A stretch of DNA of 19,636 nt, taken from positions 1-19,636 of the forward strand of contig JALOPK010000020.1 in assembly GCA_025453925.1 (NCBI GenBank), read 5' to 3'. Source of the stretch: Candidatus Eiseniibacteriota bacterium (GTDB lineage: Bacteria; JAFGKV01). Position numbers and translations under genes: made by a program. This document shows positions 975 through 19,344 of this stretch, piece by piece (the first letter of the stretch is position 1; the number at the start of each line of letters is the position of its first letter). The notes beneath the pieces are model-generated. The model did no database searches and was not told where the DNA came from. It saw only the letters and a program-made list of their open reading frames with translations.

Positions 975-993
975 GCGCCGCAGAGAGCGGCGC
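975..993 (-). terminator. Hairpin just after rpsI, possible terminator or attenuator
   Basis: Perfect 7-bp inverted repeat, arms GCGCCGC and GCGGCGC around a 5-base loop, starting two bases past the rpsI stop codon. No U-run follows in the minus direction, so an intrinsic terminator is uncertain. It could lower read-through into rpsB or act as an mRNA processing or stability element. Confidence 0.4.
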
Positions 994-995
994 GT

Positions 996-1825: not shown

Positions 1826-1875
1826 CACGTGTTTCACCTCTCTCCAGATACTTCATTGGAGCCGAACAAGGAACC

Positions 1876-1894
1876 GACGCCGGGGACAGGCGTC
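1876..1894 (-). other. Hairpin in the rplM upstream region
   Basis: GACGCC and GGCGTC arms enclose a 7-base loop about 50 bases upstream of the rplM start. If the promoter lies further upstream this would be in the rplM leader, where ribosomal operons often carry autoregulatory structures. No match to a known L13 leader class is claimed, and no clear -10/-35 pair was found between 1838 and 2011. Confidence 0.25.
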
Positions 1895-2011
1895 AAGACA
1901 GAATGTGACGGCCTGATCTCTCTTGACTACGGCCGCCCGGCGTGATCTCTTGGTCTTGCATTGTCCTCAATCGTCAAATCCTCCGCGCAAGCTCCGTACT
2001 TGAGACCGCTC

Positions 2012-3208: not shown

Positions 3209-3210
3209 GG

Positions 3211-3237
3211 CAGTCACGCCGCGCTCCGCGGCGACTG
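3211..3237 (+). terminator. GC-rich hairpin after the VanZ-like gene
   Basis: Arms CGCCGCG (3217-3223) and CGCGGCG (3227-3233) around a 3-base loop; outer CAGT/ACTG pairing extends the stem across a 2-base bulge. It begins three bases past the stop codon in a convergent gap. No T-run follows, so Rho-independent function is likely but unproven. Confidence 0.5.
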
Positions 3238-3441
3238 GCAGCGCCACCGTTCGCAGGGGCAGGTCTCCGCCCTTTCACGGGAGGGACCCATTCCGGTCGC
3301 GCTCGGCTGGATGAGCAGCCCGCTTCGCTCTATCTCGGCGGGAAGACGTTCCCAGCACCGTGCCTTCGCACACCGGTTGCCCACCGCATGAGGACGCGGG
3401 AATGATGGCCGCACTGACCCGCTCTCACGCCCCGCGACGGT
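3238..3441. other. Convergent intergenic stretch, no gene seen
   Basis: Space between the 3' ends of the VanZ-like gene and the small exported-protein gene. Frames crossing it show no family motif, signal peptide or ribosome site. Nothing further could be supported. Confidence 0.5.
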
Positions 3442-4023
3442 TCAGTCGGAAACCGAAGGGACCGAGTAGCCCGGCACCCACTCCGGTCTACCCGCGAGGA
3501 AATCAGACAGCCGGCACGCCTGGCAGGGGAGCCGGCCTGAGACCGGAAAGACCTCGTGGAACCAGGCCCCAGAGCTGTCAGGACCAAGTGCAACGTACGA
3601 CTCCTCCAACCGCCTCAGTGAAGTCCCGGCTAACAGGTCGCGCACCAGATATCCTTCCCCCGCTCCCATTCTATGGTACGTGGTGAGTGTGACGCCGCTG
3701 TCGGACGGGGTCACCTTGACGGCAAGGGGATGAAAGAAGACGCGATCGACGAAGCGATAGGCGACTTCTTCGTCACCCTCCCGAGCCCAGATCTCCCACC
3801 TTCCTCCCGCATTGCCCCAGCCGGGGCAATCCCCGAAATCGCAGGTGGCCGACAGCGCCAGATCAGGTGCCCCGTCGCCGGTGAAGTCTGCAGTCAACCG
3901 GACCAGCACGCATTTCTCGGGACGGGTGGTGCTGGCCGCCCGTCTGGCAAACGCGGCTGTGGGGTCGGCGACAATCGTCGAGTCAGGTCCGCCGAGTATC
4001 GCCATGAGAAGCAACAGGCACAT
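3442..4023 (-). CDS. Small exported protein with FG-GAP-like calcium loop
   Basis: 193 residues. The N-terminus is a short hydrophobic segment (MCLLLLMAILGG) that could be a weak signal peptide, lacking the usual positive charges. Residues 46-54, DFTGDGAPD, are a calcium-loop motif of FG-GAP/VCBS/dockerin type, and a Cys-rich stretch follows (CDFGDCPGW), which suits an extracytoplasmic protein with disulfides. No enzyme motif was recognised. The start is firm: GAGGTGA lies six bases before ATG 4023 and spans the stop of the GH113 gene, whose stop codon is only six bases upstream. The two are therefore translationally coupled and probably work in the same compartment. Function unknown. Confidence 0.7.
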   Translation of the reverse strand: MCLLLLMAILGGPDSTIVADPTAAFARRAASTTRPEKCVLVRLTADFTGDGAPDLALSATCDFGDCPGWGNAGGRWEIWAREGDEEVAYRFVDRVFFHPLAVKVTPSDSGVTLTTYHRMGAGEGYLVRDLLAGTSLRRLEESYVALGPDSSGAWFHEVFPVSGRLPCQACRLSDFLAGRPEWVPGYSVPSVSD

Positions 4024-4029
4024 CAGAGA

Positions 4030-5373
4030 TCACCTCACGAGGGTGACACAGGCCGAGGCTCGTCGCGCGGGTGATTCGACCCGCAGGACGTAGGTGCCTG
4101 CGGATACCCTGGGTGGTGGCGCCCAGACGAGACCGATTACGCCCGCCGAGGAGACTCCCGTTTCCACCTCGCCCTCCACCCGATGACCCATCAAGTCATA
4201 CGCGGCGACGTGAAGAGGGGCGGCATGATGCCGAATCGTGAGCCATACCCTGTCTCGCGCAGGATTCGGATACACGGCCAGGAGCGTTTCTCTGACGCCG
4301 AGGTTGCCGTCGTTGCCCAGCGCGTAGTTGCCTCGCAGCACTTCTTGGGCCAGCTTGCCGTTGGGAGTGAATCCGACTTCGTAGTCAGGGCCGTCTTCGC
4401 GATAGTCGCTGGTGGAGGAGTTGTCCCATGACCACCAGAACACGCCTCGTATCCACGGTCTTGACGCGATCGCGTCGAAGAAGGCCTGGTAGTAGTCTGC
4501 CTGTTCCTGGTGGTCGGGGACCACCCCGGTGTAGTCCCAGTTCCACGGCTCCCGCGCGGCGCCGTCGTAGCTGCTGCAGCCGATCTCTGTGAACACAATG
4601 GGAAGGCCCTGCCCGGGTCCCTGCGCGAATGCTTCGATGTCGACAGCTATGGTATCCCACACCGCCGCCATGTCATCCACGGTGGGATCGTCGCGATCGG
4701 CCAAGGGAAAGTAGGCGTCGATACCAACCAGATCCACCAGATGCCACCATGAGATCAGATCGTACTCCTCCCACCAGTTCGCCGCATACGTGATGGGCCC
4801 GGCGTACAGCGATCGCACGGTGTCCACCACGGCGGCCCATTCGACGCCAAGGCTGATGCTGGAGCTGATGAACTCGCAGCCGATGGAGAACTGCTCCACG
4901 CCCAGGGTTGCGCCCAAGGCGGCATAGTGGCCGATGAACCGCCGGTAGCTGGCGAACCAGGCGGGCCAACTGGCGGGGTTGATCTCCGCCCGCCAGGTGC
5001 CGTCTTCCGGATCGACCATGGGCTTGAGCATGACGGACAGGCCTCGGGCGTGGGCTTCTTGGATGATATGACAGACCGATGAATCTGAGGCGGTCCCGCC
5101 CCAGTCGGCGGGGGCAATGGTCGTGCTGGAGGCCGTCTCCTGAAACCACCAGACGCAGACCGAGACCCAACCCACATGACTGGCAACCAGCGTGTCGAGC
5201 GTCGCGTCGCTCTCCGGCGAGGCGTAGACATCCTCGCTGAACGCCACCAGGCTCATGCCCTTCTGGAAGCCAGGACCACCCCCGGCGAGAACCAGTGACG
5301 GCACCAGGAACACCGACCATGGAATCGCCATACCCGCACCTATCGCGCCGGTCCCGAAGATTCCCCGCTTCAT
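4030..5373 (-). CDS. Secreted GH113-type glycoside hydrolase with C-terminal sorting module
   Basis: 447 residues from ATG 5373, chosen because GGGGAG lies seven bases upstream; a GTG at 5382 sits directly against that site. Residues 1-30 form a signal peptide ending ...PSLVLA. Residues about 37-345 form a TIM barrel resembling GH113 (endo-beta-1,4-mannanase family): FQKGMSLVAF, VMLKPMVDPEDGTWRAEINP, SYRRFIGHYA, ITYAANWWEEY, GIDAYFPL and GVFWWSW. Likely acid/base is Glu167 in IGCEF and nucleophile Glu263 in IVFTEIGC. Residues about 365-447 (VYPNPARDRVWL...YDLMGHRV...SAGTYVLRV) are a FlgD/T9SS-like sorting domain. Substrate is probably mannan-like by family; other barrel hydrolases are possible. 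It sits between the PD40 propeller gene and the FG-GAP-like gene. Confidence 0.85.
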   Translation of the reverse strand: MKRGIFGTGAIGAGMAIPWSVFLVPSLVLAGGGPGFQKGMSLVAFSEDVYASPESDATLDTLVASHVGWVSVCVWWFQETASSTTIAPADWGGTASDSSVCHIIQEAHARGLSVMLKPMVDPEDGTWRAEINPASWPAWFASYRRFIGHYAALGATLGVEQFSIGCEFISSSISLGVEWAAVVDTVRSLYAGPITYAANWWEEYDLISWWHLVDLVGIDAYFPLADRDDPTVDDMAAVWDTIAVDIEAFAQGPGQGLPIVFTEIGCSSYDGAAREPWNWDYTGVVPDHQEQADYYQAFFDAIASRPWIRGVFWWSWDNSSTSDYREDGPDYEVGFTPNGKLAQEVLRGNYALGNDGNLGVRETLLAVYPNPARDRVWLTIRHHAAPLHVAAYDLMGHRVEGEVETGVSSAGVIGLVWAPPPRVSAGTYVLRVESPARRASACVTLVR

Positions 5374-5682
5374 GGTGCCCACTCCCCTTCCTGACGCAGG
5401 CCCTGCGTCTCGCCGCAGCAGTTCCCTCGCGCCGCCGAACCCCTCACCGCTCCCCTGTGCATGGGGCTCTCAGTGCGACCCGGGAAATCCAAGAAACGCA
5501 GCGTCCATGCGGGGTCAAGTGGGGTGCGCCCGCCCTGAAGGAGCGGTGCGCCAGAGTTGAGTCGGGCTACCGTCGTCGCACGTCGCCCATCCGGCGATCC
5601 CCCGTCCTTGCCCGGATGCGGGGCCGCTCCCTTGCCATCGAGCCGAAGCACTCCGGAACGGCCGCGAGAGCCGAGCGAGGGG
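5374..5682. other. Spacer between GH113 and PD40 genes, no gene seen
   Basis: About 309 bases. The only clear signal is the ribosome-binding sequence just upstream of ATG 5373. Competing frames lack family motifs. A promoter for the GH113 gene could lie here, but no convincing -35/-10 pair was found, so co-transcription with the PD40 gene is undecided. Confidence 0.45.
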
Positions 5683-6840
5683 CTACCGCGAAACGAGAAG
5701 CGGCTCGCTGCGGGTGCAGTCGCCGGTCATCACCGTGCAGCAATAGCCGCCGCCGGAAACGCTGCCCCCCATGTCCGAAGTCCCGTCCCACCGAGTGCAG
5801 TAGCATCCAGGCCCGCGGTGCTGATCCATCAGAAGCCGGGTGAGCCTTCCCTGCATGTCGTAGATCGCGATGACGACCCTGGCGGCCTCGTGAAGCACAT
5901 AGGAGACGGTGGTGCCGGTCCGAGTGGGATTTGGGAACAGCGACAGCCCGATCCCCGGCATGGGCATCAGGCCCTGGGCATCGGTTGCTTCCTCCGCATA
6001 CCAGATATCCCAGCCGCCGGACCCACCGGTACGCCCGGACCCGAAGAAGATGGTGCCGCCGACCACCCCGTTGTTGTCGAGGAAGCTGGCGCCCCACTCT
6101 GCTGCCGATGTGTTGAGGACGGCCCCCATGTTCACCATCGGGCCCCACGCGTCGCCCTGCCGCTGGGCGATCCACATGTCAGCATCACCGTGTCCGTCTG
6201 ACCGTGTCGAACAGATGAGCAGGGTCCCGCCATCGTCGGACAGCCAGCGGGGGCAGTCGGTGGCGCTGGAGTTGACCGCGGCGCCCAGATTCTCCGGTTC
6301 GCTCCAGCCCAGCTCCGAGCGCCGGGACACCCATGCATCCATGCTGCCGAATCCTCCCGTGTGGGTGGAGCAGAAGTAGATCGTGCTTCCCTCCGCGTCG
6401 ACCACCGGGCAGCAGTCCAGAGCCCCCGAGTTGGCGGGCGGGCCGAAGTTCTCCTTGGTGCCGGCCACCCCTTCGGTGAGGGTGCACCGGTAGATGTCCA
6501 TGGCGCCTTGGCCGCCGGGCGCCAGAGAGGCGAAGTAGAGGACGGAGTCTCCCGGCGCCAGATAGGGCGCCGACTCGCAGTAGGCGGTGTTGACCTGTGG
6601 GCCGAGGTTGCGGGGCGGTTGCCACTCGCCGCCCTCCTTGACGCTGATCCACAGGTCCGAAGAACCGTAACCGTCGGGTCGGTCCGAGACGAATACCATC
6701 CAGGTTCCGCCTCTGTTCAGTACGGGATACCAGTCGTTGGAGTCGGTATTGATGACGGAGCCGATGTTGACGGGTGACTGCCATTCCGCGTGGGCGGAGG
6801 CCAGCGAACCGAGAGCGAGCACGACCCACAGACGATGCAT
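5683..6840 (-). CDS. Secreted PD40/WD40-like beta-propeller with C-terminal sorting module
   Basis: 385 residues from ATG 6840, preceded by GGAGGTGA five bases away; the frame extends 48 codons further upstream but without a signal peptide there. Residues 1-18 (MHRLWVVLALGSLASAHA) are a signal peptide. Five propeller-like repeats follow, each with a pattern of N(I/L)G..(V/L)N, then a strand ending in F.S.R..G.G..D(L/M)W, for example SDRPDGYGSSDLWIS and STRSDGHGDADMWIA. This is the PD40 type seen in TolB- and OmpA-associated proteins. Residues about 298-385 (LFPNPTRTGTTVSY, IYDMQGRL, WDGTSDMGG) are the FlgD-like sorting domain, here unusually rich in cysteine. Probably a surface binding or scaffold protein. 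It lies upstream of the GH113 gene on the same strand. Confidence 0.85.
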   Translation of the reverse strand: MHRLWVVLALGSLASAHAEWQSPVNIGSVINTDSNDWYPVLNRGGTWMVFVSDRPDGYGSSDLWISVKEGGEWQPPRNLGPQVNTAYCESAPYLAPGDSVLYFASLAPGGQGAMDIYRCTLTEGVAGTKENFGPPANSGALDCCPVVDAEGSTIYFCSTHTGGFGSMDAWVSRRSELGWSEPENLGAAVNSSATDCPRWLSDDGGTLLICSTRSDGHGDADMWIAQRQGDAWGPMVNMGAVLNTSAAEWGASFLDNNGVVGGTIFFGSGRTGGSGGWDIWYAEEATDAQGLMPMPGIGLSLFPNPTRTGTTVSYVLHEAARVVIAIYDMQGRLTRLLMDQHRGPGCYCTRWDGTSDMGGSVSGGGYCCTVMTGDCTRSEPLLVSR

Positions 6841-7148
6841 TGGACTCACCTCCCCTGGATGATTCGACCGCGAACGGTGAAGGGACGGCGTGATGACCGC
6901 GCCGGGAAGTGCGCCAGCAATGCCCGTGCCAGAGCCTCGCGAAATGCGGGCCGAGTACCGAGTGACCTGCGTGCCGTGACGCACCAGGCCCGGCGGGGGG
7001 ACCGACCAGCGCCTCGCGAGGAGGCGGATACGCGTTGGGGCGTCTCACCGATCGAGCAACACTGCTGCGTTGGGTACCACGGGAACCGAAGGTCGCCGCG
7101 CGGGTGATGGAGTGCCAGATACTCGACATCATCGAAGGGGATGCCGTT

Positions 7149-7162
7149 GTTCACCGGTGAAC
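7149..7162. promoter_or_regulatory. Perfect 14-bp palindrome, possible operator
   Basis: GTTCACCGGTGAAC is a perfect palindrome of even length with a CCGG centre, the form of a site bound by a dimeric repressor such as LacI- or TetR-type proteins. It lies about 310 bases upstream of the PD40 gene start in a gene-poor region. No regulator gene is adjacent. Function is inferred from symmetry alone. Confidence 0.3.
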
Positions 7163-7508
7163 GCTCATGCCCGCAACTGGACGACGCCGGTGGCCGCCGC
7201 GATAGCCCAGTCCCACGCTCCCGAGCTGGCGAGCGACCGTCGGCGGGGAAGGAGGCCGACTCCTCAGCGGAATGCCAGTTGGAGAAGCACGGAGAGCGCG
7301 AACAGGAGAATGGCCGCGAGTCGGGACCTGATCACGATGTCCATCCTTGCATGCGGGGCGTGGACACTCCGGCCTGCGTGTCGATCTCCTCGATGACTGC
7401 CGAAGAACCGCCGCTCCTTCCGGGCCGAGGCGCGACATGCCACGACCGACCACAAGGATGCATCCGGTCGCTCACAATCCGCTCACGCACTCCCGTTCCT
7501 GGGGCCCG

Positions 7509-7531
7509 CCCGGCCGCCACGGCCGGCCGGG
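7509..7531. terminator. GC-rich hairpin downstream of the radical SAM gene
   Basis: CCCGGCCG (7509-7516) and CGGCCGGG (7524-7531) form an 8-bp stem with a 7-base loop, about 120 bases beyond the radical SAM stop on the minus strand. No U-run follows. It may end the MocR-radical SAM transcript. Confidence 0.35.
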
Positions 7532-7649
7532 TGAGGGCCGCAACCCGTGAAAGGGTTTCGGGGCGAGCCGCCTTGCCGTGAACCTCGCTCGATTCGCGGT
7601 GGCGACGCGATGCGCACCCGCAGGGCGGAGGCGGTGCGGCCGCCTCCCG

Positions 7650-8405
7650 TCAGAACACCATCGTCGGGATCTCCGCCCGATCCATGAGGCGTCCGATAGC
7701 GTGGAGGCGCGCAGTGTCGAGGCACGCAAGCGTGGGGGTCGGAGCGTCGCGATCCAGGGAATAGAGTTGCACCATGCGCGGCCGAATCCGCTGCAGGCAG
7801 GCGATCAACGATTCAATATCGTCATGCGACGAATTGCCCTCAGGCCCGCCGGCGAGCAGACACTGGATCGTGACACTGGGCAGCGACCTGAGGCCCCGGG
7901 TGATATCTTCAAGGCCGAGACTCGGCCATGGCCGGTTGAAGTTGGCCAGCAACGCGTCGGTGCCCGCATCCAGCTTCATGATCCGTACGTCGAGGCAAGA
8001 CAATGCGGAAGCGATCTCCGTGTTCCCGGCCAGAGACGAATTGGAGAGCAGCGCGACCTTGGCATCGGGCACCAGCCGGTTCCGGAGCGCACAGACACCA
8101 TCGACCAGGTCGCCGAACTGGGGATGCAGTGTCGGCTCCCCGTTGCCTGAGAACGTCAGATAGGCCGGCTGAGGGATATCGCCGGCAAGGGCCTCTTCGA
8201 TAGCGGCGAGTACGTCGTCGACTGGTGGGAATCCGGGGCGCGCGGTGTCCGGGGAGACGGGTGCCGCCCGCCCGTATTGGCAGTAGAGACAGTCGAACGT
8301 GCAGGTCTTCCGGTAGGGAGGAAGGGCGTTGATGCCCAGCGACCAGCCCAGCCGCCGGGAGCGAACCGGGCCGTAGGTGATCGTGCCTTTTGTACTGAGC
8401 AGCAT
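7650..8405 (-). CDS. Radical SAM protein of the COG0731 (TYW1-like) group
   Basis: 251 residues from ATG 8405; GAGGTG lies six bases upstream, while an in-frame GTG at 8414 falls inside that site. The [4Fe-4S] motif is CTFDCLYC (Cys35, Cys39, Cys42), and the SAM-binding GE motif is seen in LTFSGNGEPTLHP. The opening YGPVRSRRLGWSLGINALPP is characteristic of COG0731 Fe-S oxidoreductases, which are related to the wyosine-synthesis enzyme TYW1. Bacterial members mostly have unknown substrates, so no reaction is assigned. It begins 10 bases after the MocR stop codon, so the two are very probably co-transcribed and translationally coupled. That pairing suggests its reaction relates to what the MocR protein senses. 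Confidence 0.88.
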   Translation of the reverse strand: MLLSTKGTITYGPVRSRRLGWSLGINALPPYRKTCTFDCLYCQYGRAAPVSPDTARPGFPPVDDVLAAIEEALAGDIPQPAYLTFSGNGEPTLHPQFGDLVDGVCALRNRLVPDAKVALLSNSSLAGNTEIASALSCLDVRIMKLDAGTDALLANFNRPWPSLGLEDITRGLRSLPSVTIQCLLAGGPEGNSSHDDIESLIACLQRIRPRMVQLYSLDRDAPTPTLACLDTARLHAIGRLMDRAEIPTMVF

Positions 8406-8415
8406 CGTCACCACC

Positions 8416-9897
8416 TCACGAGCCGGAGATGTCGCGTATTGCTCGCCCCAGCCGCCGCATCCCCTCCTCTATGCGCCGCTCGTCAACCGCGGCGATGGAG
8501 AGCCGGAAGCAGGGACGCGTCGGAGGTTCGATGAAGTAATACGGACCGGGTGACACGATCACGCCGGACTGTGCGATGTGGGCATACACCTCCTCCGGAA
8601 AGCGGGCGCAGCGGGTCAGTTCGACCCAGATCAGGTACCCGCCGCCAGGCTCCGACCACGTCGCGAGATCAGGCGGCACGTGCTCCCGCATGGCCTGTAG
8701 CGTCACACGCATGCGCTTCCGGTACATGCGGTGAAGCCGACGGACGTGGAGGTCGTACAACCCCCGTTGGCAGAACTCGGTGAGGGCCGCATGGAGCAGC
8801 GCCGTGGGCGAGAGATCCGCGAATCTGCGGACAGCCACCAGGTGCTCGATGCACCCCCGATCCGCGGCGACCCATCCGATGCGGAGGCCCGGCATGAGGA
8901 TCTTCGAGAAGGTTCCGAGGTAGATCACGACGCCGCGGGTGTCCATTGACTTGATGGGCAGCGACACCTTCCCGAAGTACTTCATCTCCTCCTCGAATCC
9001 GTCCTCTACCACCGGCACTCGATGGTGTTCACAGAGCGCAAGCAGGCGTTCGCGATGATCCTGCGTGGTCGACACTCCGGTCGGATTCTGGAAGTTCGGC
9101 ATGGTGTAGACGAACCCGACATCCCGCCGCGCCAGCGTGCGCTCCAGTTGTTCGAGATCCATTCCGTCGGAGTTCATGGAAATCGGGATGATCTCGGCCC
9201 CGTGGAGCCGCAGAAGCGGGATCATCATGGCATAGGTCGGGGCTTCCACCACGACTCCCCGGCCCGGCGTGGCCAGGATTCGAACGAGGAGATCCAAGCC
9301 GTGCTGTGACCCGTTCGATATGAAGATCTCGTCCGGCGACACCTGGATCCCGTGAATCTGCATGCGGCGGGCGAGGTACTCCCGCAGCGGCCAGTAGCCC
9401 GCCCGCGGTCCGTAGCACAGCAGGTTCGCGCCCTCCCTGCGCAGAACCGTGTTCGTGCACCGCCGGAACGACTCGGCGGGGATGAATCGCTGATCCATGT
9501 CCAGACGGCTGAAATCCACTGCGTCCGGGGTAGAGTGATTGCCCTCCGGCGAGAAGCCGAGATACGTCCGGTGGGCATCGGCGCTCCCCGGCGAGACGCG
9601 GGAATCCCAGGAGATGAGTCCGGCCGAGGCCGGTGCGCCGGGGGGGGCCATTGGTGCTCGGCCGCGCACCCTTGAATAGGATCCCGGTCGCCCCTCGACA
9701 TAGCCAAGGGACCATAGCTCCTCGTATGCGCGATAGATGGTCGTGCGGTTCACACCCAGGTGCTCCGCCAGCTTCCTGGTGGGGGGCAACGCCGAGCCGA
9801 TTGGGAGACTCCCACGGTCGATCAGGCCACGGATCTGGTCGGTGATCTGCTGGTGGAGCGGGGTCGGGCCGTGTCGGGTGAGTGTGAGAAGGAGCAT
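8416..9897 (-). CDS. MocR-family regulator (GntR wHTH fused to aminotransferase fold)
   Basis: 493 residues from ATG 9897, preceded by GAGG seven bases away; the frame could run to 9951 but the conserved domain starts after this Met. Residues about 10-78 are a GntR-type winged helix-turn-helix (PLHQQITDQIRGLIDRG, ALPPTRKLAEHLGVNRTTIYRAYEEL, GYVEGRPGSY). Residues about 120-490 are a fold-type I PLP domain: YGPRAGYWPLREYLA, NFQNPTG (Asn271), VVEDGF (Asp299), TFSK (PLP Lys332) and FRLSIA (Arg465). All key PLP residues are present, so the cofactor can bind. MocR proteins sense PLP or amino-type ligands and commonly regulate nearby genes and themselves. It is followed by the radical SAM gene. Confidence 0.93.
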   Translation of the reverse strand: MLLLTLTRHGPTPLHQQITDQIRGLIDRGSLPIGSALPPTRKLAEHLGVNRTTIYRAYEELWSLGYVEGRPGSYSRVRGRAPMAPPGAPASAGLISWDSRVSPGSADAHRTYLGFSPEGNHSTPDAVDFSRLDMDQRFIPAESFRRCTNTVLRREGANLLCYGPRAGYWPLREYLARRMQIHGIQVSPDEIFISNGSQHGLDLLVRILATPGRGVVVEAPTYAMMIPLLRLHGAEIIPISMNSDGMDLEQLERTLARRDVGFVYTMPNFQNPTGVSTTQDHRERLLALCEHHRVPVVEDGFEEEMKYFGKVSLPIKSMDTRGVVIYLGTFSKILMPGLRIGWVAADRGCIEHLVAVRRFADLSPTALLHAALTEFCQRGLYDLHVRRLHRMYRKRMRVTLQAMREHVPPDLATWSEPGGGYLIWVELTRCARFPEEVYAHIAQSGVIVSPGPYYFIEPPTRPCFRLSIAAVDERRIEEGMRRLGRAIRDISGS

Positions 9898-9950
9898 TCT
9901 GGAGCCTCGCTTGGTGGAGCCTGCTACTGGCCGTCCGGCCGGGTACTCCA

Positions 9951-9979
9951 AAGATGTAGCACAATTGGTCCTTCGTCAA
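9951..9979 (-). promoter_or_regulatory. Candidate promoter for the MocR-radical SAM unit
   Basis: On the minus strand TTGACG (9979-9974) matches a -35 box at five of six positions; CATCTT (9956-9951) sits 17 bases later as a weak -10, with TACATC (9958-9953) as an alternative at 15 bases. Start of transcription near 9944 would give a leader of about 45 bases. Confidence 0.4.
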
Positions 9980-10013
9980 CAGCCAATTTCCGCACAATTC
10001 GAGCAGGCCAATT
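9959..10013 (-). promoter_or_regulatory. Four AATT-containing boxes over the MocR promoter
   Basis: Read on the minus strand, AATTGGC (10013-10007), AATTGTGC (9999-9992), AATTGGC (9988-9982) and AATTGTGC (9966-9959) are direct repeats of two alternating types. Distances between successive AATT cores are 14, 11 and 22 bases, the last two being one and two helical turns. They flank the -35 and enter the spacer, as expected for MocR autoregulation through direct repeats. The region is also AT-rich compared with its surroundings. Confidence 0.45.
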
Positions 10014-10123
10014 CGTCAGGGATTCTCACCGGATCCGAGTGTGCGGTTCTGGTTTGGGAGCACGAGGCAGGGATCCTGGCACGACACCATGCCTGGAGGT
10101 CGGAGGTACCGGGGAGGTACGGT

Positions 10124-10630
10124 CTACACCAGCCCGTCAACCAGCCGCATCATCTCGCCCACGGTCGTCGCCTGCAACGCCTGGTCCACCAGGCCTCCGT
10201 AGGTGACCGCGATGGCGAGCTGTTTGGCGAACCGGCGATAGATCTGGTCCTCGTAGGGCGGGCAGACCATGGAGAAGAAGAGATGTACGGGCTCCCCGTC
10301 CGGGGCGTCATAGTCGATGCCCGGCATGCTCCGGCCGATAGCGAACACCAGCGTCCGCGTATGCATGGTGCGGACGTGAGGGAAGGCAACTCCATGGCCC
10401 AGCGCGGTTGACCATTGTTTCTCGCGGTTGTGGAGATCGATGAAGAGTTTGTTCGGATTGCGAATGTCCGACGAGGTGAGGAGCAGGTCGCACATCTCGT
10501 GGATCACCCGTTCCTTGAGGTCGCGGAGCCAGCGTTCCCGCGGGATCTCCTCCCGCTCTTCATCCGAGGGCATCAGCGTGAGCATCTCGAGGCGCACTCT
10601 CGCGTCGCTCAGATACCGCATCAGACCCAT
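10124..10630 (-). CDS. PtsN-like PTS EIIA domain protein
   Basis: 168 residues from ATG 10630, with GGAGG six bases upstream. Residues about 20-168 are an EIIA type 2 (fructose/mannitol/nitrogen) domain. The phosphorylation site is His85 in LGHGVAFPHVRT, with the helix KLFIDLHNREKQWSTALG before it and the strand-turn PVHLFFSMVCPP after it, all typical. The first 20-40 residues are atypical, charged and of unknown purpose. No EIIB, EIIC, HPr or EI gene is visible, which fits a regulatory PTS(Ntr)-type role rather than sugar uptake. It lies upstream of MocR on the same strand but 226 bases away with a promoter between, so is probably a separate transcript. Confidence 0.85.
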   Translation of the reverse strand: MGLMRYLSDARVRLEMLTLMPSDEEREEIPRERWLRDLKERVIHEMCDLLLTSSDIRNPNKLFIDLHNREKQWSTALGHGVAFPHVRTMHTRTLVFAIGRSMPGIDYDAPDGEPVHLFFSMVCPPYEDQIYRRFAKQLAIAVTYGGLVDQALQATTVGEMMRLVDGLV

Positions 10631-10664
10631 CGTGATCCTCCGTTATGCATTACTGCCGCGCCCG

Positions 10665-10679
10665 CGGGCGGGTCGCCCG
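10665..10679 (-). terminator. Short GC hairpin between GT4 and EIIA genes
   Basis: Arms CGGGCG and CGCCCG with a 3-base loop, 28 bases beyond the GT4 stop codon. The neighbouring 12-bp palindrome CGCCCGCGGGCG (10659-10670) overlaps it and offers an alternative fold. No U-run follows, so termination is a guess. Confidence 0.3.
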
Positions 10680-10707
10680 GGTACCTTCCACCTGAAGGAA
10701 GGCGGGC

Positions 10708-11940
10708 CTACAACTTACGTGGCACGTTTCTCGGTGCAACCGCCCGTAGTTCTAGCGCCCTGGCGTACAACCCTTCGATCTCGGGCAGCGCCCGGTCCCA
10801 GGAGAGCGTGCTGAGTGCCATCTCGCGGGCGGCGGCTCCCAGCTTCGCCGCCAGGCAAGGATCGCGAAGCAGGCGCAGGATCGCTGCCGCGAACGGCTCC
10901 GGCGCCATCGACTCCACGATGAGTCCGGTCTCCCCGTCGACGATGCCGTGGGCGCAGGCCCGGCTGGCCACCACGGCGCGGCCGGCGGCAAGGTAGTTCA
11001 CCAGCTTGATAGGATACCCGCAACTCGGGAGCCGTGTGCACACCGCCAGCGAGGAGCGCAGGATCCACCGGCGCACCGCGTGAAATCCATGGGCGAGCAC
11101 GAAGTCAACGGAACCGCTGAGCCCCAGCGACCGTACCCGGGCCTCCAGGCGCGGACTCCGTTCATGGCTCACGATGGTCAGCACGGCATCGGGCATCTCT
11201 CGGGCCACGATGGCCATGCTGTCGATGAGGATCGAGAGGTTCTGGTAGTTGTCGAGGTTTCCGGTGTACACGATCGAGGCGGTCCTGGGAGGCCCCTCGG
11301 CAGGCGGCCATTCCTCGGGCCAGACCCCCGGCGGTATGACGCTGATGACCTCAGCGCGCACGCCCAGGGCGGTCAGTTCGTCCCGCACGGCATCGTTGAG
11401 GGCCACCACTGCATCCGCCTGCACCGGGATGCGCCGATCGAGGAACATGCCTAGCCATCGGGCAATCCTTCTCGACATGGGATCTCTGAAGTAGGTAGGC
11501 AGTTCTTCGTGCAGCACATTGTGAGTGTGGTAGACCAGGGGGACACCCAGCCGCCGGGCGACCAGAGCGCCGATCAGAGCGCCCTCGTAGTTGTGCCCGT
11601 GGACGAGATCGGGCTTCACCCGCAGGCCGACAGCCCGCGCCTTCCGCCAAAGGAGCCAGTCCAGCCCGAGCTTCCCCGCGCTCGGCCCGGCCTTCAACCG
11701 CCCCGTTCCAGGCAGGCGGCGGGTCCGGTACACGGGAAAATCGAAATCCGCCTGGTACTCGCCGTGGTGATAGGTCACCAGATGCACCGTGTGACCACGC
11801 CCCTGGAGGCCTGCGGCGAGCTGGCGAATGAGCGTCTGCGAACCCTGGCTCGTGGGGAAGGGGCACGGCGCGATCATGAGGATCGAACGTGCCGCGACGA
11901 CGCTGGACGGCAGGCGCACGGTCTCTGTTCGCGGCAACAT
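10708..11940 (-). CDS. Family 4 glycosyltransferase (GT-B fold)
   Basis: 410 residues from ATG 11940. An ATG at 12003 would add 21 residues, but its purine-rich GGAGGG touches the start codon, so the choice is not secure. N-terminal Rossmann half: ILMIAPCPFPTSQGSQTLIRQ, then LVHGHNYEGALIGALVARRLG and VYHTHNVLHEELP. C-terminal half: VIPPGVWPEEW, VYTGNLDNYQNL (start of the nucleotide-sugar domain), PSCGYPIKLVNYLAAGRAVVAS and GETGLIVE. The usual acidic residue of the E-x7-E motif is replaced around RLPSCGYPIKLVNYLA (no Glu at the first position, Asn for the second), which is worth noting. Donor and acceptor unknown. It follows the phosphodiesterase gene on the same strand by about 144 bases. Confidence 0.88.
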   Translation of the reverse strand: MLPRTETVRLPSSVVAARSILMIAPCPFPTSQGSQTLIRQLAAGLQGRGHTVHLVTYHHGEYQADFDFPVYRTRRLPGTGRLKAGPSAGKLGLDWLLWRKARAVGLRVKPDLVHGHNYEGALIGALVARRLGVPLVYHTHNVLHEELPTYFRDPMSRRIARWLGMFLDRRIPVQADAVVALNDAVRDELTALGVRAEVISVIPPGVWPEEWPPAEGPPRTASIVYTGNLDNYQNLSILIDSMAIVAREMPDAVLTIVSHERSPRLEARVRSLGLSGSVDFVLAHGFHAVRRWILRSSLAVCTRLPSCGYPIKLVNYLAAGRAVVASRACAHGIVDGETGLIVESMAPEPFAAAILRLLRDPCLAAKLGAAAREMALSTLSWDRALPEIEGLYARALELRAVAPRNVPRKL

Positions 11941-12084
11941 GACTACGGTGACCCACCGACATCGGCCGGGGCGGGTGGCGATGGCGGACAGCGGGTACCG
12001 CATCCCTCCGGTCGCGCCATATGGTGGTCAGGGGCGCATGCCACGGAATAGTTGGAGCGGGGCGCGCCGTCTGTTCCATGGGAC

Positions 12085-13785
12085 CTAGCCAAGGTACCCC
12101 AATCCCTTCAACCGCTCGAGCCGCTCCCATTCCCACGAGACCGCATCAGCCGCGGCCCGCTGGCACGAGGAGTCCCCCTCGCCCTCGCGGGTGGGCCGCG
12201 GGAGCGAGATCGGGGGCTCGCCCATCCCGGGGGGAGCGGGCAGCCCGAGTGCAGCGAGCAGCGCGCCGGCGACCTGATGGGCATCCGTCGCGGCAGGGAG
12301 TCTCCCCGGTCGCACACCCTCTCCGCAGGCGACCAGAATCCCCTCGCGGCGGTGGGTTCCTCCCATGCCGGATCCTTTTGCTCCCAAGGCAGAGAGATTC
12401 ATTCGACGCTGATCGGGGCCGTTTCGGCCCATGGACGACGCAACCACGTAGGAGTATCCCTCCGGCTCGGCGAGGTCAAGGAGGAGATCCGGCATGCCGC
12501 CAAGCGCCGGGCCATCCGTGACCTCCTCCCTGCGCATCACCCTCGTGACCACCGCGTCGCCTGTTCGGGCGTCCTTCCAGCCGAGCAGTGCCGCGCCCAC
12601 GTCGTCGAGTACGGCATCGTACCGGTCGGGGGCCACGACGCCGCGCCCTTCGCGGCCCGCCAGATTGATCCGGACCGCCGGTGCGTAGGGGAGCTCCTCC
12701 GAGTATGCCGTTGTGCCTTCCCACCCTATCCCGCCCAGCCGGCGGCGGCTCTCCAGCGCGCCCACGAGACGACGCGCGCGGCGGAACAGGCGTTGCTGGA
12801 GCGCGCGAGGCAGCAATCCGGCTGCCCCGATGGCAGACGGGAAGCCAAGGCGCCGGCCTCCGCCCTTTCGGAATCGGAGGAAGCCCTGCCGCTCGAGGAA
12901 CCGGTTGAGACATATCGCATCTGCCCCCGCACCGCCGAACCCGTGGTCGGAGACGACCATGACCAGCCCCACATCCCCCGCTGCCGCGGTCACGCGGGCC
13001 AGAGCGCTGTCCAACCGCGAGTAGATGTCGCCGATCACGCCGGCCATCTCCGGGTCGGTGAGAGCGGGCCTCCGCGGGCTGCGAGCATCGGCGAAGGGCC
13101 AGAAGTGATGGCACGCGGTGTCGCTTTCCCCGAACACCATGACGAACAGATCGGGCCGAAGCTCGCGGAGGACAAACTCCGCCACGCGCACCTTGCCCTC
13201 GATGCTCTGTTGCAGTGCGGGGCAGGCCCTGCGGTGCCAACCCGGGCTGATCCTCAGCTCCTGCACGGGAGTGAGAGGGAACCCTCCGACGCCCAGAAGC
13301 CGCTTCCTCCAATCGGGCGGATGGATGAACGATGGCTCGATGCTGGTGGTGACCGGGGTGTCGAACCCGGAGATCATCAGGTCCACTGAACTGTCGGGAG
13401 GGAAGGTGCCGGGCACGCCCAGGACCGCGGCCACGAGCCCCGCGCGGTGGACCCGCTCCCAGACCGCGGGTACGCGCCGCGACCGCGAGTCCGTAAAACG
13501 AACGGAGTAGGTGGCCGGATCGAACTCGGTGAAATCGAGAACCCCGTGATGGCCGGGAGTGACGCCGGTCATGATGCTGGTCCACGAGGGAAACGTGGAA
13601 CCGGGCCAGGGGCTCATCAGCGGCCCCCAACAGCCGCGCCCGAGGAGGCCGGCCAGAAACGGCATGGCCCCACGTGCCAGGAGCGGTTCCAGCACGGGCC
13701 ATCCCGCGCCGTCCAGCCCGAGCAGCAGAACTGGTTTGGTGGGCGGCTTCACGCGCGTGGCGACCCACCGAGGCCGTCGAGACAA
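12085..13785 (-). CDS. Alkaline-phosphatase-superfamily phosphodiesterase / nucleotide pyrophosphatase-like protein
   Basis: 566 residues if started at TTG 13785; GTG 13752 is an alternative and neither has a strong ribosome site. The core is the type I phosphodiesterase fold: LLLGLDGAGWPVLEPLL (metal-binding Asp25), STFPSWTSIMTGVTPGHHG (likely nucleophile Thr69), FGESDTACHHFWPF and VVSDHGFGG (metal ligands Asp-His). The C-terminus ends RLKGLGYLG, a tail seen in sulfatase- and phosphodiesterase-like proteins of this type. No signal peptide or membrane segment is visible, so a cytoplasmic enzyme is likely. Relatives act on nucleotides, glycerophospholipid headgroups or phosphonate-type esters; the substrate cannot be read from sequence. 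It is upstream of the GT4 gene, suggesting envelope or glycan metabolism. Confidence 0.85.
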   Translation of the reverse strand: MSRRPRWVATRVKPPTKPVLLLGLDGAGWPVLEPLLARGAMPFLAGLLGRGCWGPLMSPWPGSTFPSWTSIMTGVTPGHHGVLDFTEFDPATYSVRFTDSRSRRVPAVWERVHRAGLVAAVLGVPGTFPPDSSVDLMISGFDTPVTTSIEPSFIHPPDWRKRLLGVGGFPLTPVQELRISPGWHRRACPALQQSIEGKVRVAEFVLRELRPDLFVMVFGESDTACHHFWPFADARSPRRPALTDPEMAGVIGDIYSRLDSALARVTAAAGDVGLVMVVSDHGFGGAGADAICLNRFLERQGFLRFRKGGGRRLGFPSAIGAAGLLPRALQQRLFRRARRLVGALESRRRLGGIGWEGTTAYSEELPYAPAVRINLAGREGRGVVAPDRYDAVLDDVGAALLGWKDARTGDAVVTRVMRREEVTDGPALGGMPDLLLDLAEPEGYSYVVASSMGRNGPDQRRMNLSALGAKGSGMGGTHRREGILVACGEGVRPGRLPAATDAHQVAGALLAALGLPAPPGMGEPPISLPRPTREGEGDSSCQRAAADAVSWEWERLERLKGLGYLG

Positions 13786-14067
13786 CCGGTCGGCACCGCG
13801 CGGGGAGGTCGGCTCCTCGCACCGACATCCAACCGAGCGAGCGACGCCACCTCTCGGGACGCGACGGCGATCGAATGCTGCCGCTTGCGTGAATCCGTAT
13901 TCTCAGTATCGCGCATGGTCACCCTGCATCCCGCGGCGTCCGCGGCGGGCCCTTGGTTTTGTCTTGGCGGGCGGCTGCATCATCGCCCCGACGTGGTCTG
14001 TTCACACCGGCCCTGCCAACGTGGGCCTGGCGCTGAACAACCTCAACCCGAACATGGGAGACGGCCA
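13786..14067. other. Divergent intergenic region
   Basis: About 280 bases between the phosphodiesterase start and the secreted protein start. CCGCGG-CGT-CCGCGG at 13931-13945 is an inverted repeat followed on the plus strand by a T-rich patch, but no plus-strand gene precedes it. GGGAG seven bases before ATG 14068 is the ribosome site of the downstream gene. No clear promoter was found. Confidence 0.4.
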
Positions 14068-15741
14068 ATGTACGCATCGGTGCCCCGGTTTGCAGCCCTG
14101 TGTGCCCTCGCGATCATCCCGCATCTGACACAGGCCCAGACGGATGTCGTCAACGATTTCGGACCCGCCACCATGGAGTCCAATCCCAGCGTTGACTTCC
14201 ACGGTCCTGCCGGCCTGACCCTCTTGCCCTTTGATGATGGTTTCGACGCGCCGGAGCTGGATGCCGAACGGTGGACCGTGTACACCCAGAACGGATCGTG
14301 CTCGGTAGAAGACGGGTACCTGAGGCAAGACCTCGTTGCCGGCGGAGGGGATTCGTGGGCGACGGTGGTGCCCAAGCACACCTTTGCCGCGGGATCCTGG
14401 TTCGATCTGGAGGCGAAGTTCGACGCCTCGCACCTCCCTGCGACCAACTCCTGGTTCATGGTGATTCGCATCACCGTTGTCGACCACATCCAGGTGGAGA
14501 TGATCCGGAGCTATCACGTGTCCCGCCACGCGTGGAGTTCTCAATGCCGCTATTGGTCCGGCACCTATTGGGGCCCATGGTCCCAGCAGACATGGACCAC
14601 CGAGGATGTGACCACCGTGGGGTGGCTCGGGTTCGACCGTTTGGACGGCTCGACGACCCTGAGGGCGTGGTATCGTGGCTCCGGCGCGTGGATTCCGTGG
14701 GCCTCGTTCGCCGATTGCGGCGGGACGGCGTCGGTCTCCGTCACGACCAACAACTGGGTCCAGCATGCCTACGGATACGGGCTCTGGGACTCCTATGAGG
14801 TGAACATCCCCGGGGCCCCATACCTCGGAGACGGGCAGGGAATCCGGCTTCCGGTGGATTCGGGCATCGATCGGGTGAACCTGACGCGGCTCGCATGGGA
14901 TGCGGTGGTGCCCGACAACACGAGCGTAGCCTTCCAGCTCCGGGCGGCCCCCGGCGCCGGCGGCGCACCAGGCGCATGGACGGAGTGGTTCGGCCCGGGA
15001 GGCAGCCCCGACCTGTGGTTCGACGCATCGCCGGTCCCTGTCACCTTCACCCCCGACTACTGCCAGTGGGTCCAGTGGCGCGTACGTCTGACCAGCGCCG
15101 ACGGCCTGGAGACGCCGCGAGTCAACAGCGTGCAACTCGACTGGGAGACCAACCCCCAGCCGGTGGAGCTGGCGTCCTTCTCGGCGGCGTGGGAAGATCA
15201 GCGCGTATGTCTTCGTTGGTCGACGGCCTCGGAGTCCGACAATGTGGGGTTCAGAGTACTCCATCGAGAGTCAGACGCCCAGCCGTGGAAGCCGATCTGC
15301 GACCTGATTCCCGGTGCCGGAACCACCCAGGAACCGCGGCAGTATGCGTGCGCGCATGACGCGGATCCCTTGTCGTGGCACCACTACCTGCTGGAGGACG
15401 TGGATGCCCGCGGCACTGCCACGCGTCACGGCCCTGTTTCTGTCGCGCCGGCGCATATGGCGACAAACCTGTCGCCTAACTGCCCCGAACCATTCAGCGG
15501 GACAACGAGGTGGCTGCTGCCGGGCGAAGCTCCCCCGCATGAGGCGTGGATCGCCGACCTTGCAGGCAGGAGGATCTGCGACGTCCCGTGGTCGTGGACC
15601 GGAGGAGCATGGTCTCTTGCGTGGCACGGCCGGGACGGCAGCGGCCGTAGCATGCCGGCCGGACCCTATGTCCTCAGCGTCCTGCGCGACGGCGCGCTCT
15701 TCCGCCAGGTATGCGTCAAGGCGGGGAGTCCGCGGCGGTGA
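14068..15741 (+). CDS. Secreted multidomain beta-sandwich protein with sorting module
   Basis: 557 residues from ATG 14068 (GGGAG seven bases upstream); the same frame is open back to 13447, but that part lies over the phosphodiesterase gene and lacks coding character. Residues 1-23 form a signal peptide (FAALCALAIIPHLTQA). Residues about 55-255 resemble a concanavalin A-like lectin/glucanase fold of the DUF1349 kind (FDDGFDAPELDAERW, many Trp/Tyr). Residues about 265-375 are a second beta-sandwich (WTEWFGPGG, WVQWRVRLTS). Residues about 376-460 match the fibronectin-like module common in sorted proteins (VELASFSAAW, LRWSTASESDNVGFRVLHR). The end is a divergent FlgD-like sorting domain (LAGRRI, WHGRDGSGR, MPAGPYVLSV). 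Likely a surface carbohydrate-binding protein; catalytic residues not recognised. Confidence 0.82.
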   Translation: MYASVPRFAALCALAIIPHLTQAQTDVVNDFGPATMESNPSVDFHGPAGLTLLPFDDGFDAPELDAERWTVYTQNGSCSVEDGYLRQDLVAGGGDSWATVVPKHTFAAGSWFDLEAKFDASHLPATNSWFMVIRITVVDHIQVEMIRSYHVSRHAWSSQCRYWSGTYWGPWSQQTWTTEDVTTVGWLGFDRLDGSTTLRAWYRGSGAWIPWASFADCGGTASVSVTTNNWVQHAYGYGLWDSYEVNIPGAPYLGDGQGIRLPVDSGIDRVNLTRLAWDAVVPDNTSVAFQLRAAPGAGGAPGAWTEWFGPGGSPDLWFDASPVPVTFTPDYCQWVQWRVRLTSADGLETPRVNSVQLDWETNPQPVELASFSAAWEDQRVCLRWSTASESDNVGFRVLHRESDAQPWKPICDLIPGAGTTQEPRQYACAHDADPLSWHHYLLEDVDARGTATRHGPVSVAPAHMATNLSPNCPEPFSGTTRWLLPGEAPPHEAWIADLAGRRICDVPWSWTGGAWSLAWHGRDGSGRSMPAGPYVLSVLRDGALFRQVCVKAGSPRR

Positions 15742-15829
15742 TGGAGGCTCTGGAGCCCGCTCCCGCCGCAGGAACGCGCGCTGCCGCGATCGAGTGCGGT
15801 GTCCCACCGCGAGGCGGGGCGTCGGCGAT

Positions 15830-15849
15830 GCCGGCGGCCCCCCGCCGGC
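15830..15849. terminator. Bidirectional hairpin between convergent genes
   Basis: GCCGGCGG and CCGCCGGC form a perfect 8-bp stem with a CCCC loop, centred in the 124-base gap between two convergent 3' ends. Position and strength fit a shared terminator, though U-runs are absent on both sides. Confidence 0.5.
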
Positions 15850-15865
15850 GGCTCGGAGAGCGTGA

Positions 15866-16465
15866 CTACCGGCTGATCGTGACTGCCCTGCTCAGGGAGA
15901 CCTCGCCCGCTCGGATGCGGCACACGTAGACGCCTGAGACGGTGGGCGCCCCTGAGAGGTCCCTCCCGTCCCACGAGAAGCTCGTAGTGCCGGGGGCACA
16001 TCCTGCCGGACGTCCAGCCGTCCACACGAGCCTTCCGGCCAGGTCGTAGGCCGAGAGTGCAACATCGGTGGCGGAGCCAACCGTCACCGGGAACCACACC
16101 ATGCCGCGCGACGGGTTCGGGTAGGGTTCGCCGACCACGAGCTGGCGCGTTCCTGGGTCCCATTCCTCGGCCCCGGAAGGGTCACACCGTCCGTAGAAGA
16201 TGTCATTGTCATAGCCGTCATAGAAGTGGCCGCCCTCCCACACGACCCAGATCACCCCCGCGCTGTCGCTGGCCACGGCCGGAACATGGTCCACCAGGGA
16301 GTCAGACATGGTCACCTGGCGGTTGTGCCCCCACGCGCCATCATCGAACCCGCAGAGGTAGACATCACTGGAAGACGTCCACCACGTCACCCACAGGGGC
16401 CTGGGATTGAGGTGAGATTGCGCGGACGTCGTTGAATCCGGGCATGGATGACGCTCTTCCTGCAT
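15866..16465 (-). CDS. Probable 5'-truncated sorted surface protein
   Basis: 199 residues, starting at ATG 16465 with AGGGGA five bases upstream, but with no signal peptide. Residues about 23-95 hold roughly one and a half units of an extracellular repeat: WVTWWTSSSDVYLCGFDDG and PAVASDSAGVIWVVWEG, which normally occur in long tandem series in such proteins. Residues about 113-199 are a clear FlgD-like sorting domain (PYPNPSRGMVWFPV, AYDLAGRLV, WDGRDLSG, VSGVYVCRIRAG). An exported-protein C-terminus without an export signal suggests that the 5' part has been lost. Bases 16466-16608 show no missing part in any minus-strand frame. It is divergent from the SBBP gene. A real short cytoplasmic protein is less likely. 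Confidence 0.6.
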   Translation of the reverse strand: MQEERHPCPDSTTSAQSHLNPRPLWVTWWTSSSDVYLCGFDDGAWGHNRQVTMSDSLVDHVPAVASDSAGVIWVVWEGGHFYDGYDNDIFYGRCDPSGAEEWDPGTRQLVVGEPYPNPSRGMVWFPVTVGSATDVALSAYDLAGRLVWTAGRPAGCAPGTTSFSWDGRDLSGAPTVSGVYVCRIRAGEVSLSRAVTISR

Positions 16466-16608
16466 CTACGTCCCCTGGAGACCTTGAGCTGTGGCGCGTG
16501 AACGCGGCTGTTCCTGGTCGCGGATGCGGAGTCCTGGACTTCGCGATCTGGGCGGCCTAGATTACTGCCGTGGCGCGCAATCGAGAGGCACATCGAAGGG
16601 GGACTGTC

Positions 16609-19344
16609 ATGATTTCGCCGTACCCACTCGCGTTGCCCCGCGGCTTGATCACATGCTGCACCATTTGTGTCCTTTGGATCGCTCAGGAGGCTCTCTCCGG
16701 TCCTCATGGTGCCGACCACGGACGGGAGGCGGACGGGACATCACCACCTTGTCAGGCACCGCTCGGGCTGTGTGATCCTGGGGACAACTCACACCTGACG
16801 GACTGGCCTAACTACGTCTGGTCGACTCCCCTTTTCGAAGGAGTTCCGCGCGCACCTGATACCCATCCAGGCGCCGCAGCCGGGCCGGTTTCTACGCGGA
16901 CAGGGGCGCGGCGCTGCATCGGAGATCTTCCGAGTGCCCATTCGCTGGTACAGTCTGGCGATTCCCGCGATTTCGTCTTCGTGGCGTGGATGAGAGTGTA
17001 CGCGTCGGGGCTGGTGCCAACCATCGACAATGCCTCGGCCATTGTAGTGGATCGGTCCGGGAACGCGGTAGTCACCGGCACCACGAGAGGCCTGTGGGGA
17101 GATACCGACTACCTGACTGTCAAGTACGACAGCGCGGGCTCACAGCTATGGATGGCGCAACTCGACGGTGCCTCCGGGGGAGACGACTATCCTACAGCTT
17201 TGGCGGTCGATGGTCTCGGAAACATCGTCGTAACTGGCCATACCAGCTATTACCAGACTGATTGCTTGACTGTGAAGTACGACACCAACGGGAGTCTGGA
17301 ATGGGAAGCGATGTACGCCTCCGACGAATGGTACAACTTCCGCGATGAACCAACGGACATCGCTTTCGACTCATCGGGGAATATCTACATCACCGGACGC
17401 AGTGAAGGCGTCGAGTACGGCGGTACGAGCTACCTGACCATCAAGTACAGCTCGTTCGGTGAGGAGATCTGGGTCGCTCGCTTCGAGGATCCCTTGGGGT
17501 GGGGTTACGCATACGCAACGGCGCTGGCGGTGAGCCCCATCGGCGACGTGTTCGTTACGGGGTCATCGGGTTTCTCGTCTGGGGGGCCCGCGATGGTCAC
17601 GGTCAAGTATGACTCGGAAGGCGTGGAGCAGTGGGCAGTCGGCTACTGCGGCCCTTACCCTTACTCCCATGATGCCGGCAGGGACATCGCGGTGGACGCT
17701 CGCGGAGATGTCTATGTGACGGGGGAGAGTCTGTGCCTGACCGCAGACGACGAACACTATGACTACGCGACCATGAAGTACGCGTCCAACGGCGAGTTGC
17801 TCTGGGCTGCCCGCTATGACGGAGGAGGGGGCGGCAATGACTACCCGTCTCGCCTGCTCTTGGACGCCCGTGGCAACACGGTAGTGACCGGGCGCAGCAC
17901 CGGGGTGGGGATAGACTATGACTATGTCACGGTGAAGTATGACTCCAGTGGAAGTGAGTGTTGGGCGGCCCGGTACGGTGCAGAGGAGGGGAGCGATGAT
18001 CTTGCCGTGGGGCTGGGGATCGGCTCCAACGGAACCGTCTGCGTCACCGGTACATCCTGCGCGGGTCCGGATTCCGACTTCGTGACCGTCGCATACGATT
18101 CGACCGGGCAGCTCAAGTGGGCTGCACGGTACGATGGGCCTGCGTCATCTCGTGATGTGGCTGCACGTCTCGCACTCGATGAGGCGGGGTGCGTCCTCGT
18201 CTCTGGTAACGGCCGAGGCCTCGACACACACGACGACTACGCCACAGTGAAATACAGCGACCAAGGGGAGGTCTTGTGGGAAGCCCGGTACGACGGTCCG
18301 AACGATAGCAGAGACGTGCCTGCGGATATCGAGGTGGACGACACGGGACACGTGTCCGTGGCGATCACGAGCAAGGGACCTGGGGTGAACGATGACTTCG
18401 CCCTCATCCGATACGATGAAGCAGGCAGCCGGGTGTGGTTGTCACGCTATGACGGTCCCGCCCAGGGGGAGGACCATCCCGCAGCGTTAGCCATCATGCC
18501 GCGGGGAGGTCTCGTCGTCACCGGAGACACCTGGACAGGTTCGAGTTGGCAAGGCGGCCAGGCGTTTGACTGCCTCACAATGGCCTGCGATGCCGAAGGC
18601 CGGGTACGGTGGGATGCGAGCTACGGTGGGGCCGATCGAGGGTATGACCATGGGAAACGAGTCGCAGTTGATGACATGGCGAACGTGATTGTGGCGGGAT
18701 CCAGTTGGACTGACACGACATGGTACGACTATGTCACCCTGAAGTACGACGGGCAGGGGCTCCTGCTCTGGTGCAATCGATTGACGGGCACGGACTATTC
18801 CTCGTGGGATGGGCCTACGGCCCTGTGCCTGGACGATGCTGGGAACGCCATCGTGACTGGGTACGCGGAATTCACAGGTGCCGAACGAGACTTCCTCACG
18901 GTGAAGTACTCCCCATTAGGCACGGAGATGTGGCGCGCTCGGTACAACAGTGACGGGAGTGGCAATGACTTTGCGAGTGATGCTGCGGTTGACGACAGCG
19001 GCAATGTGTACGTGACGGGCTTTACCAGTGATGCTGCGGGCAGGCGCCGATGGGTCACCATCAAGTATGACTCCCTGCGGGAAGAATTCCAGGTGACCTT
19101 GAGCGAACGGGGGAATCAGACCTTCATCCTCAAAGATTTCGCCAAAGCCCAGGAGCTGATGGCCGACGTAGGCAACATCGAGGTCCTTCCCCTAAAACAG
19201 TTGGAGCGCAACACCCAATACCAACTGCGCATCAAGGCGGAACTGAATAAAGTCACCTTACCGCTGTACCTGCATTATATTCTCTTTTTTGTATCTTTAT
19301 GGGATTTTGAAACAGACTGGTATGTTGTTGAATTCATTTATTAA
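16609..19344 (+). CDS. SBBP-repeat beta-propeller protein fused in frame to a DUF4390 C-terminus
   Basis: 911 codons from ATG 16609, with GGGGGA five bases upstream; a GTG at 16570 is less likely. The N-terminus has a hydrophobic stretch (LITCCTICVLWIAQEAL) that fits a signal peptide, then a low-complexity linker. From about residue 140 come 13 copies of the SBBP repeat, each of about 55-65 residues, with the core DY.TVKYDS.G...W.ARYDG and D..GNV.VTG. Such repeats build propellers in exported proteins. The 13th repeat stops after VTIKYDS. The last 85 or so residues (EEFQVTLSERGNQTFILKDF ... SLWDFETDWYVVEFIY) belong to another family, DUF4390. The expected sorting domain is absent. The native gene is therefore probably truncated by the junction near 19057-19090. 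Confidence 0.8.
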   Translation: MISPYPLALPRGLITCCTICVLWIAQEALSGPHGADHGREADGTSPPCQAPLGLCDPGDNSHLTDWPNYVWSTPLFEGVPRAPDTHPGAAAGPVSTRTGARRCIGDLPSAHSLVQSGDSRDFVFVAWMRVYASGLVPTIDNASAIVVDRSGNAVVTGTTRGLWGDTDYLTVKYDSAGSQLWMAQLDGASGGDDYPTALAVDGLGNIVVTGHTSYYQTDCLTVKYDTNGSLEWEAMYASDEWYNFRDEPTDIAFDSSGNIYITGRSEGVEYGGTSYLTIKYSSFGEEIWVARFEDPLGWGYAYATALAVSPIGDVFVTGSSGFSSGGPAMVTVKYDSEGVEQWAVGYCGPYPYSHDAGRDIAVDARGDVYVTGESLCLTADDEHYDYATMKYASNGELLWAARYDGGGGGNDYPSRLLLDARGNTVVTGRSTGVGIDYDYVTVKYDSSGSECWAARYGAEEGSDDLAVGLGIGSNGTVCVTGTSCAGPDSDFVTVAYDSTGQLKWAARYDGPASSRDVAARLALDEAGCVLVSGNGRGLDTHDDYATVKYSDQGEVLWEARYDGPNDSRDVPADIEVDDTGHVSVAITSKGPGVNDDFALIRYDEAGSRVWLSRYDGPAQGEDHPAALAIMPRGGLVVTGDTWTGSSWQGGQAFDCLTMACDAEGRVRWDASYGGADRGYDHGKRVAVDDMANVIVAGSSWTDTTWYDYVTLKYDGQGLLLWCNRLTGTDYSSWDGPTALCLDDAGNAIVTGYAEFTGAERDFLTVKYSPLGTEMWRARYNSDGSGNDFASDAAVDDSGNVYVTGFTSDAAGRRRWVTIKYDSLREEFQVTLSERGNQTFILKDFAKAQELMADVGNIEVLPLKQLERNTQYQLRIKAELNKVTLPLYLHYILFFVSLWDFETDWYVVEFIY
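19057..19344 (+). other. 3' fragment of a DUF4390 gene joined in frame
   Basis: About 90 codons matching the C-terminal part of DUF4390 as I know the family: KYDSLREEFQVTLSERG, a middle with KDFAKAQELM, LKQLERNTQYQLRIKAEL, LPLYLHYILFF and the terminal SLWDFETDWY. The N-terminal half and signal peptide of that gene are missing; SBBP repeats take their place. Bases 19261-19344 are about 31 % G+C by hand count, against clearly above 60 % in the SBBP part. Directly followed by an NtrY-like gene start, the neighbour expected for DUF4390. Confidence 0.7.

Follow-up and report, generated by a model that had tools for sequence, protein, structure and literature searches.

Short-read assembly of metagenomes is known to produce contigs that join two genomes through a shared k-mer (PMC7299287). 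In Bordetella, NtrYX-type systems have been described with a periplasmic third component, the DUF4390 protein PlrP (PMC13001219). The window analyzed here (19,636 nucleotides; contig C238, bases 1–19636) contains an apparent fusion of an SBBP β-propeller protein with a DUF4390 protein, followed by a kinase gene. It is taken to be an entire contig of a fragmented metagenome-assembled genome (MAG; 3.9 Mb, 502 contigs, 82% complete). Judged by its sequence, the contig is very probably an assembly chimera, in which the last ~560 bp would come from a different, sulfate-reducer-like (Desulfobacterota) bacterium, and most likely no such fusion protein exists.

Overall organization of the window

Bases 16570–19344 form one open frame of 924 residues without an internal stop, and the same protein matches both SBBP and DUF4390 in Pfam. 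Together with the repeat count given below, these results agree with the description of the frame in the initial annotation, including its coordinates. The junction lies 560–580 bp short of the contig end. Downstream of it, the DUF4390 stop at 19344 is followed by a 90-bp spacer and by a kinase start that is truncated by the end of the window at 19636. The spacer (19345–19434), which extends from the DUF4390 stop to the kinase ATG, looks G+C-rich. No Rfam families were found in the window. The features are listed in Table 1.

Table 1. Features of the window and the evidence for each (G001 and G002, comparison genomes; L003, best relative of the right arm).
Feature	Position	Strand	Evidence
Left arm, native to the MAG (S2, S9, L13, others)	1..19055	.	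Nucleotide identity to G001/G002; genus-specific dispersed repeat
SBBP β-propeller protein, 12 complete repeats and start of the 13th	16609..19055	+	Pfam SBBP, NCBIfam, repeats, left-arm composition
Shared word CACCATCAAGTATGACTCC (TIKYDS), which holds the switch	19056..19074	+	WVTIKYDS on the left, HTIKYDS in DUF4390 relatives, start of the L003 match
C-terminal part of a Desulfobacterota DUF4390 (PlrP-like) gene, with its own stop	19056..19344	+	Pfam positions 63-160/161; L003 90% amino acid, 80% nucleotide identity
NtrY/PlrS-like sensor histidine kinase, first 67 codons	19435..19636	+	82% amino acid identity to the L003 kinase; gene order in L003/L004

The SBBP propeller and the origin of the left arm

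The SBBP protein likely starts at the ATG at 16609, and its N-terminus is signal-peptide-like. The Pfam SBBP model matches repeatedly (E 2.4e-23, 82.2 bits against a cut-off of 20.5), and the NCBIfam SBBP lipoprotein model NF047494 (LipL53-type) matches with an E-value of 4.5e-59 and 200 bits, which is below its cut-off of 400 bits. Counting the signature [TAF]-[VIL]-[KR]-Y-[DS], which recurs at a spacing of ~53 residues, gave 12 complete repeats and a thirteenth that stops at RWVTIKYDS. The regular expression caught 10 of the 12, and the other two (ATMKYAS and ALIRYDE) were recognized by eye. The earlier reading of 12 full repeats and a 13th broken after VTIKYDS is therefore correct. The best SBBP relative seen (L089) reads QWVTIKYDSMG, the SBBP-type counterpart of WVTIKYDS in the window; by eye, it has a dockerin-like tail and no sorting domain, and the window frame itself is cut in mid-repeat. 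The propeller is native to the MAG, and its C-terminus is lost at the junction.

Among the genomes compared, the phylum is represented by three, the MAG and two others, G001 (same genus) and G002 (same family); the completeness of these two is 94% and 98%. The S2-S9-L13 region (153–1874) shares 79% nucleotide identity with G001, and other stretches of the left arm share 65–73% with G001 and G002. A search with a dispersed element of the left arm gave 26 matches in the MAG and 14 in G001 but none in G002. Both these identities and the genus-specific repeat indicate that the left arm is native to the MAG.

The dispersed element itself is non-coding, ~160–185 bp long and bounded by near-perfect terminal inverted repeats (CTNAGTACTCGNGTTCAT ... 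TGAATCCGAGTACTNAG). It is found in the window at 6976–7068 and 13785–13906, with complete copies in loci L130–L149, and resembles a MITE; it has a conserved internal GATATC stem-loop, with weak covariation support. Three other regions of the left arm (4030–5382, 5683–6984 and 15866–16465) encode proteins with C-terminal tails that by eye are FlgD-like or type-IX-secretion-like (PNP.R....YDL.GR). Elsewhere in the MAG, a contig of 2,590 bp (L120, G000:C100) consists entirely of the letter N, its sequence being masked or withheld.

Origin of the DUF4390 and kinase arm

The residues past TIKYDS belong to DUF4390, as the initial annotation had proposed, with a Pfam E-value of 5.5e-22 (78.4 bits against a cut-off of 27) over profile positions 63–160 of 161. 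Directly after the shared peptide they read LREEFQVTLSERG. Rather than a full-length domain behind a signal sequence, ~90 C-terminal residues are kept, the N-terminal 40% (62 of 161 profile positions) is gone, and the sequence upstream is SBBP.

The best relative of this piece (L003; JACRCK010000028.1, a Deltaproteobacteria MAG) is 90% identical in amino acid sequence, followed by RBG_13_43_22 (81%) and another groundwater MAG (78%). Apart from one titled only "bacterium", the 80 DUF4390 relatives kept are records of Desulfobacterota or Deltaproteobacteria. At the DNA level, L003 matches the window from base 19056, within the TIKYDS word, at 80% identity, and again from the kinase ATG to the end of the contig at 76% identity. 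The first 67 codons of the kinase correspond to residues 1–67 of the 741-residue L003 kinase. In both L003 and L004, a normal-sized DUF4390 gene precedes the gene for a complete kinase of ~740 residues; the two genes overlap in L003 and are 28 bp apart in L004. The right arm is an ordinary fragment of a plrP-ntrY type operon, since PlrP is known from NtrYX-type systems. The closest relatives of the two arms therefore differ, being G001 and G002 of the MAG's own phylum on the left and Desulfobacterota on the right, and the right arm, from 19056 onward, should be treated as foreign.

The closest right-arm relative is another species, and a search for the source genome among five genomes of that relative's order found none closer than 80% nucleotide identity. 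Within the MAG, the only DUF4390 copy is the one in the window, at a contig end, and G001 and G002 have none. Nothing elsewhere in the MAG closely matches the kinase body expected past 19636; other matches are 23–45% identical, and none covers the N-terminal 290 residues. Between the DUF4390 piece and L003 there are 46 synonymous and 11 non-synonymous changes, which implies strong purifying selection until the join and hence no decaying insert.

Composition supports the same division. The sharp fall in base composition noted initially was reproduced, with a G+C content of 65.0% to the left of the junction versus 52.7% to the right; among 925 left-arm windows of that length, none has a G+C content as low as the right-arm value (left-arm minimum 57.7%). 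Codon usage turns to the Desulfobacterota pattern at the junction. With log-odds trained on left-arm genes versus Desulfobacterota genes, homologous genes excluded, the right arm scores +21.7, whereas 289 left-arm windows of the same size have a mean of -17.6 and a maximum of -1.8.

The shared word at the junction

The peptide TIKYDS is common to the SBBP and DUF4390 sides. The nearest DUF4390 relatives read HTIKYDSLR where the window switches, so the initial annotation was right to place TIKYDSL in DUF4390 proteins here. The window word CACCATCAAGTATGACTCC (19056–19074) differs from its L003 counterpart, CACCATTAAGTACGATTCC, by three third-position changes in 19, which is within expectation at 80% identity. 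The switch may lie at any base within CACCATCAAGTATGACTCC, and the word shared by the two parents would be up to 19 bp long. The break keeps frame, as had been claimed, and this reflects the fact that the word encodes TIKYDS in a common phase on both sides, not selection. An earlier break, at the near-repeat 18969–18988/19020–19039, was considered and rejected: bases 19040–19055 code for an SBBP-type ..RWV before TIKYDS, like QWVTIKYDS in L089, and the nearest DUF4390 relatives have L[NHE]HTIKYDS instead.

Exact words shared between the contig and the Desulfobacterota loci are about as numerous as expected at random (275 13-mers versus 263 expected, and 15 15-mers versus 16.5 expected). Extrapolated by the same formula, genomes of 3.9 and 4.9 Mb would share ~140 19-mers by chance. 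Such words would be plentiful in a metagenome of many genomes, and a low-coverage step through one of them would give a contig of this kind.

Assembly join or genuine fusion

The initial annotation had proposed either that assembly joined two genomes at a short common word or that microhomology led to recombination, and both explanations are supported in that arms from unrelated lineages meet in TIKYDS. Of the two, the assembly join is much the likelier because the contig is metagenomic, the foreign 560-bp end is cut inside a gene, and its remainder was not found in the MAG. The true genome of the MAG would continue the SBBP propeller past base 19074, and a Desulfobacterota organism in the same sample would carry a DUF4390-NtrY operon whose DUF4390 gene contains the same, or nearly the same, word. 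The join would then have been made in software: where coverage ran low at the end of one path, the assembler probably crossed to the other through CACCATCAAGTATGACTCC and added ~560 bp before the contig ended. Counted against a chimera is that neither parent's true continuation was found; when that of the propeller was sought in the MAG by the shared word, the window copy was the single occurrence. The absence of both the kinase remainder and the propeller continuation is as a chimera predicts, and is not proof of one.

The only serious rival, an unlikely one, is a very recent genuine event, in which microhomology recombination joined Desulfobacterota DNA inside the SBBP gene and gave an in-frame fusion beside a transferred NtrY-like kinase. 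The frame is indeed open, with no stop, and the foreign DNA is without decay. The product could also be exported, given the signal-peptide-like N-terminus of the SBBP protein and the periplasmic action of DUF4390 proteins such as PlrP (PMC13001219). However, the foreign piece sits at a contig end, its remainder was not found in a MAG that is 82% complete, the N-terminal part of DUF4390 is missing, and no sign of a mobile element near the junction was seen in the searches made. At up to 19 bp, the shared stretch is, moreover, long for microhomology joining and ordinary for a k-mer join. Relatives with the same SBBP-DUF4390 fusion, which the initial annotation had named as evidence against a two-genome origin, were sought and not found among ~85 distinct DUF4390 loci, as no DUF4390 frame outside the window is longer than 272 residues; DUF4390 proteins of other groups have frames of 181–248 residues. 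It is very unlikely that a real recent cross-phylum transfer joined a secreted SBBP propeller to a PlrP-like C-terminal part, in frame and ahead of an NtrY-type kinase, and so made a new sensory module by recombination at the 19-bp word.

An established architecture in the phylum, with an SBBP propeller-DUF4390 protein as the sensor partner of an NtrY-like kinase, would suit the intact frame and the kinase directly downstream, but is extremely improbable and already contradicted by the lack of DUF4390 in G001 and G002, the propeller that stops within a repeat, the shortened DUF4390, the codon shift at the junction and the lack of a fusion among the relatives examined.

Implications

With an assembly chimera as the preferred reading, the main value of this locus is one of caution: a gene fusion is not proved by a clean open frame that crosses a junction, because proteins that share a short motif stay in frame when they are joined there. 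The last 560–580 bp should be trimmed from the contig; if they are left in place, databases may take up the false fusion, and with it the only DUF4390 of the MAG, as a new domain architecture and a spurious transfer between phyla.

Comparison with known systems

The left part of the frame resembles SBBP proteins (PF06739; LipL53-type NF047494) in its 12 repeats of ~53 residues with a T[VI]KYDS signature, and differs from them in scoring under the NF047494 cut-off and in stopping inside repeat 13. The right part shares the association of DUF4390 with a kinase seen in PlrP-PlrS of Bordetella (PMC13001219). It is closest to the L003 locus (DUF4390, PF14334, with an NtrY/PlrS-family kinase), with a C-terminal part that is 90% identical, its own stop and the kinase as the next gene; unlike L003, the window has a propeller in place of the signal peptide and the first 62 profile positions, and a spacer before the kinase where the L003 genes overlap. 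As a whole, except that its join preserves the reading frame, the window is like the chimeric contigs described from metagenomes (PMC7299287): two genomes, a short shared word, a switch in composition, and a foreign piece at the contig end.
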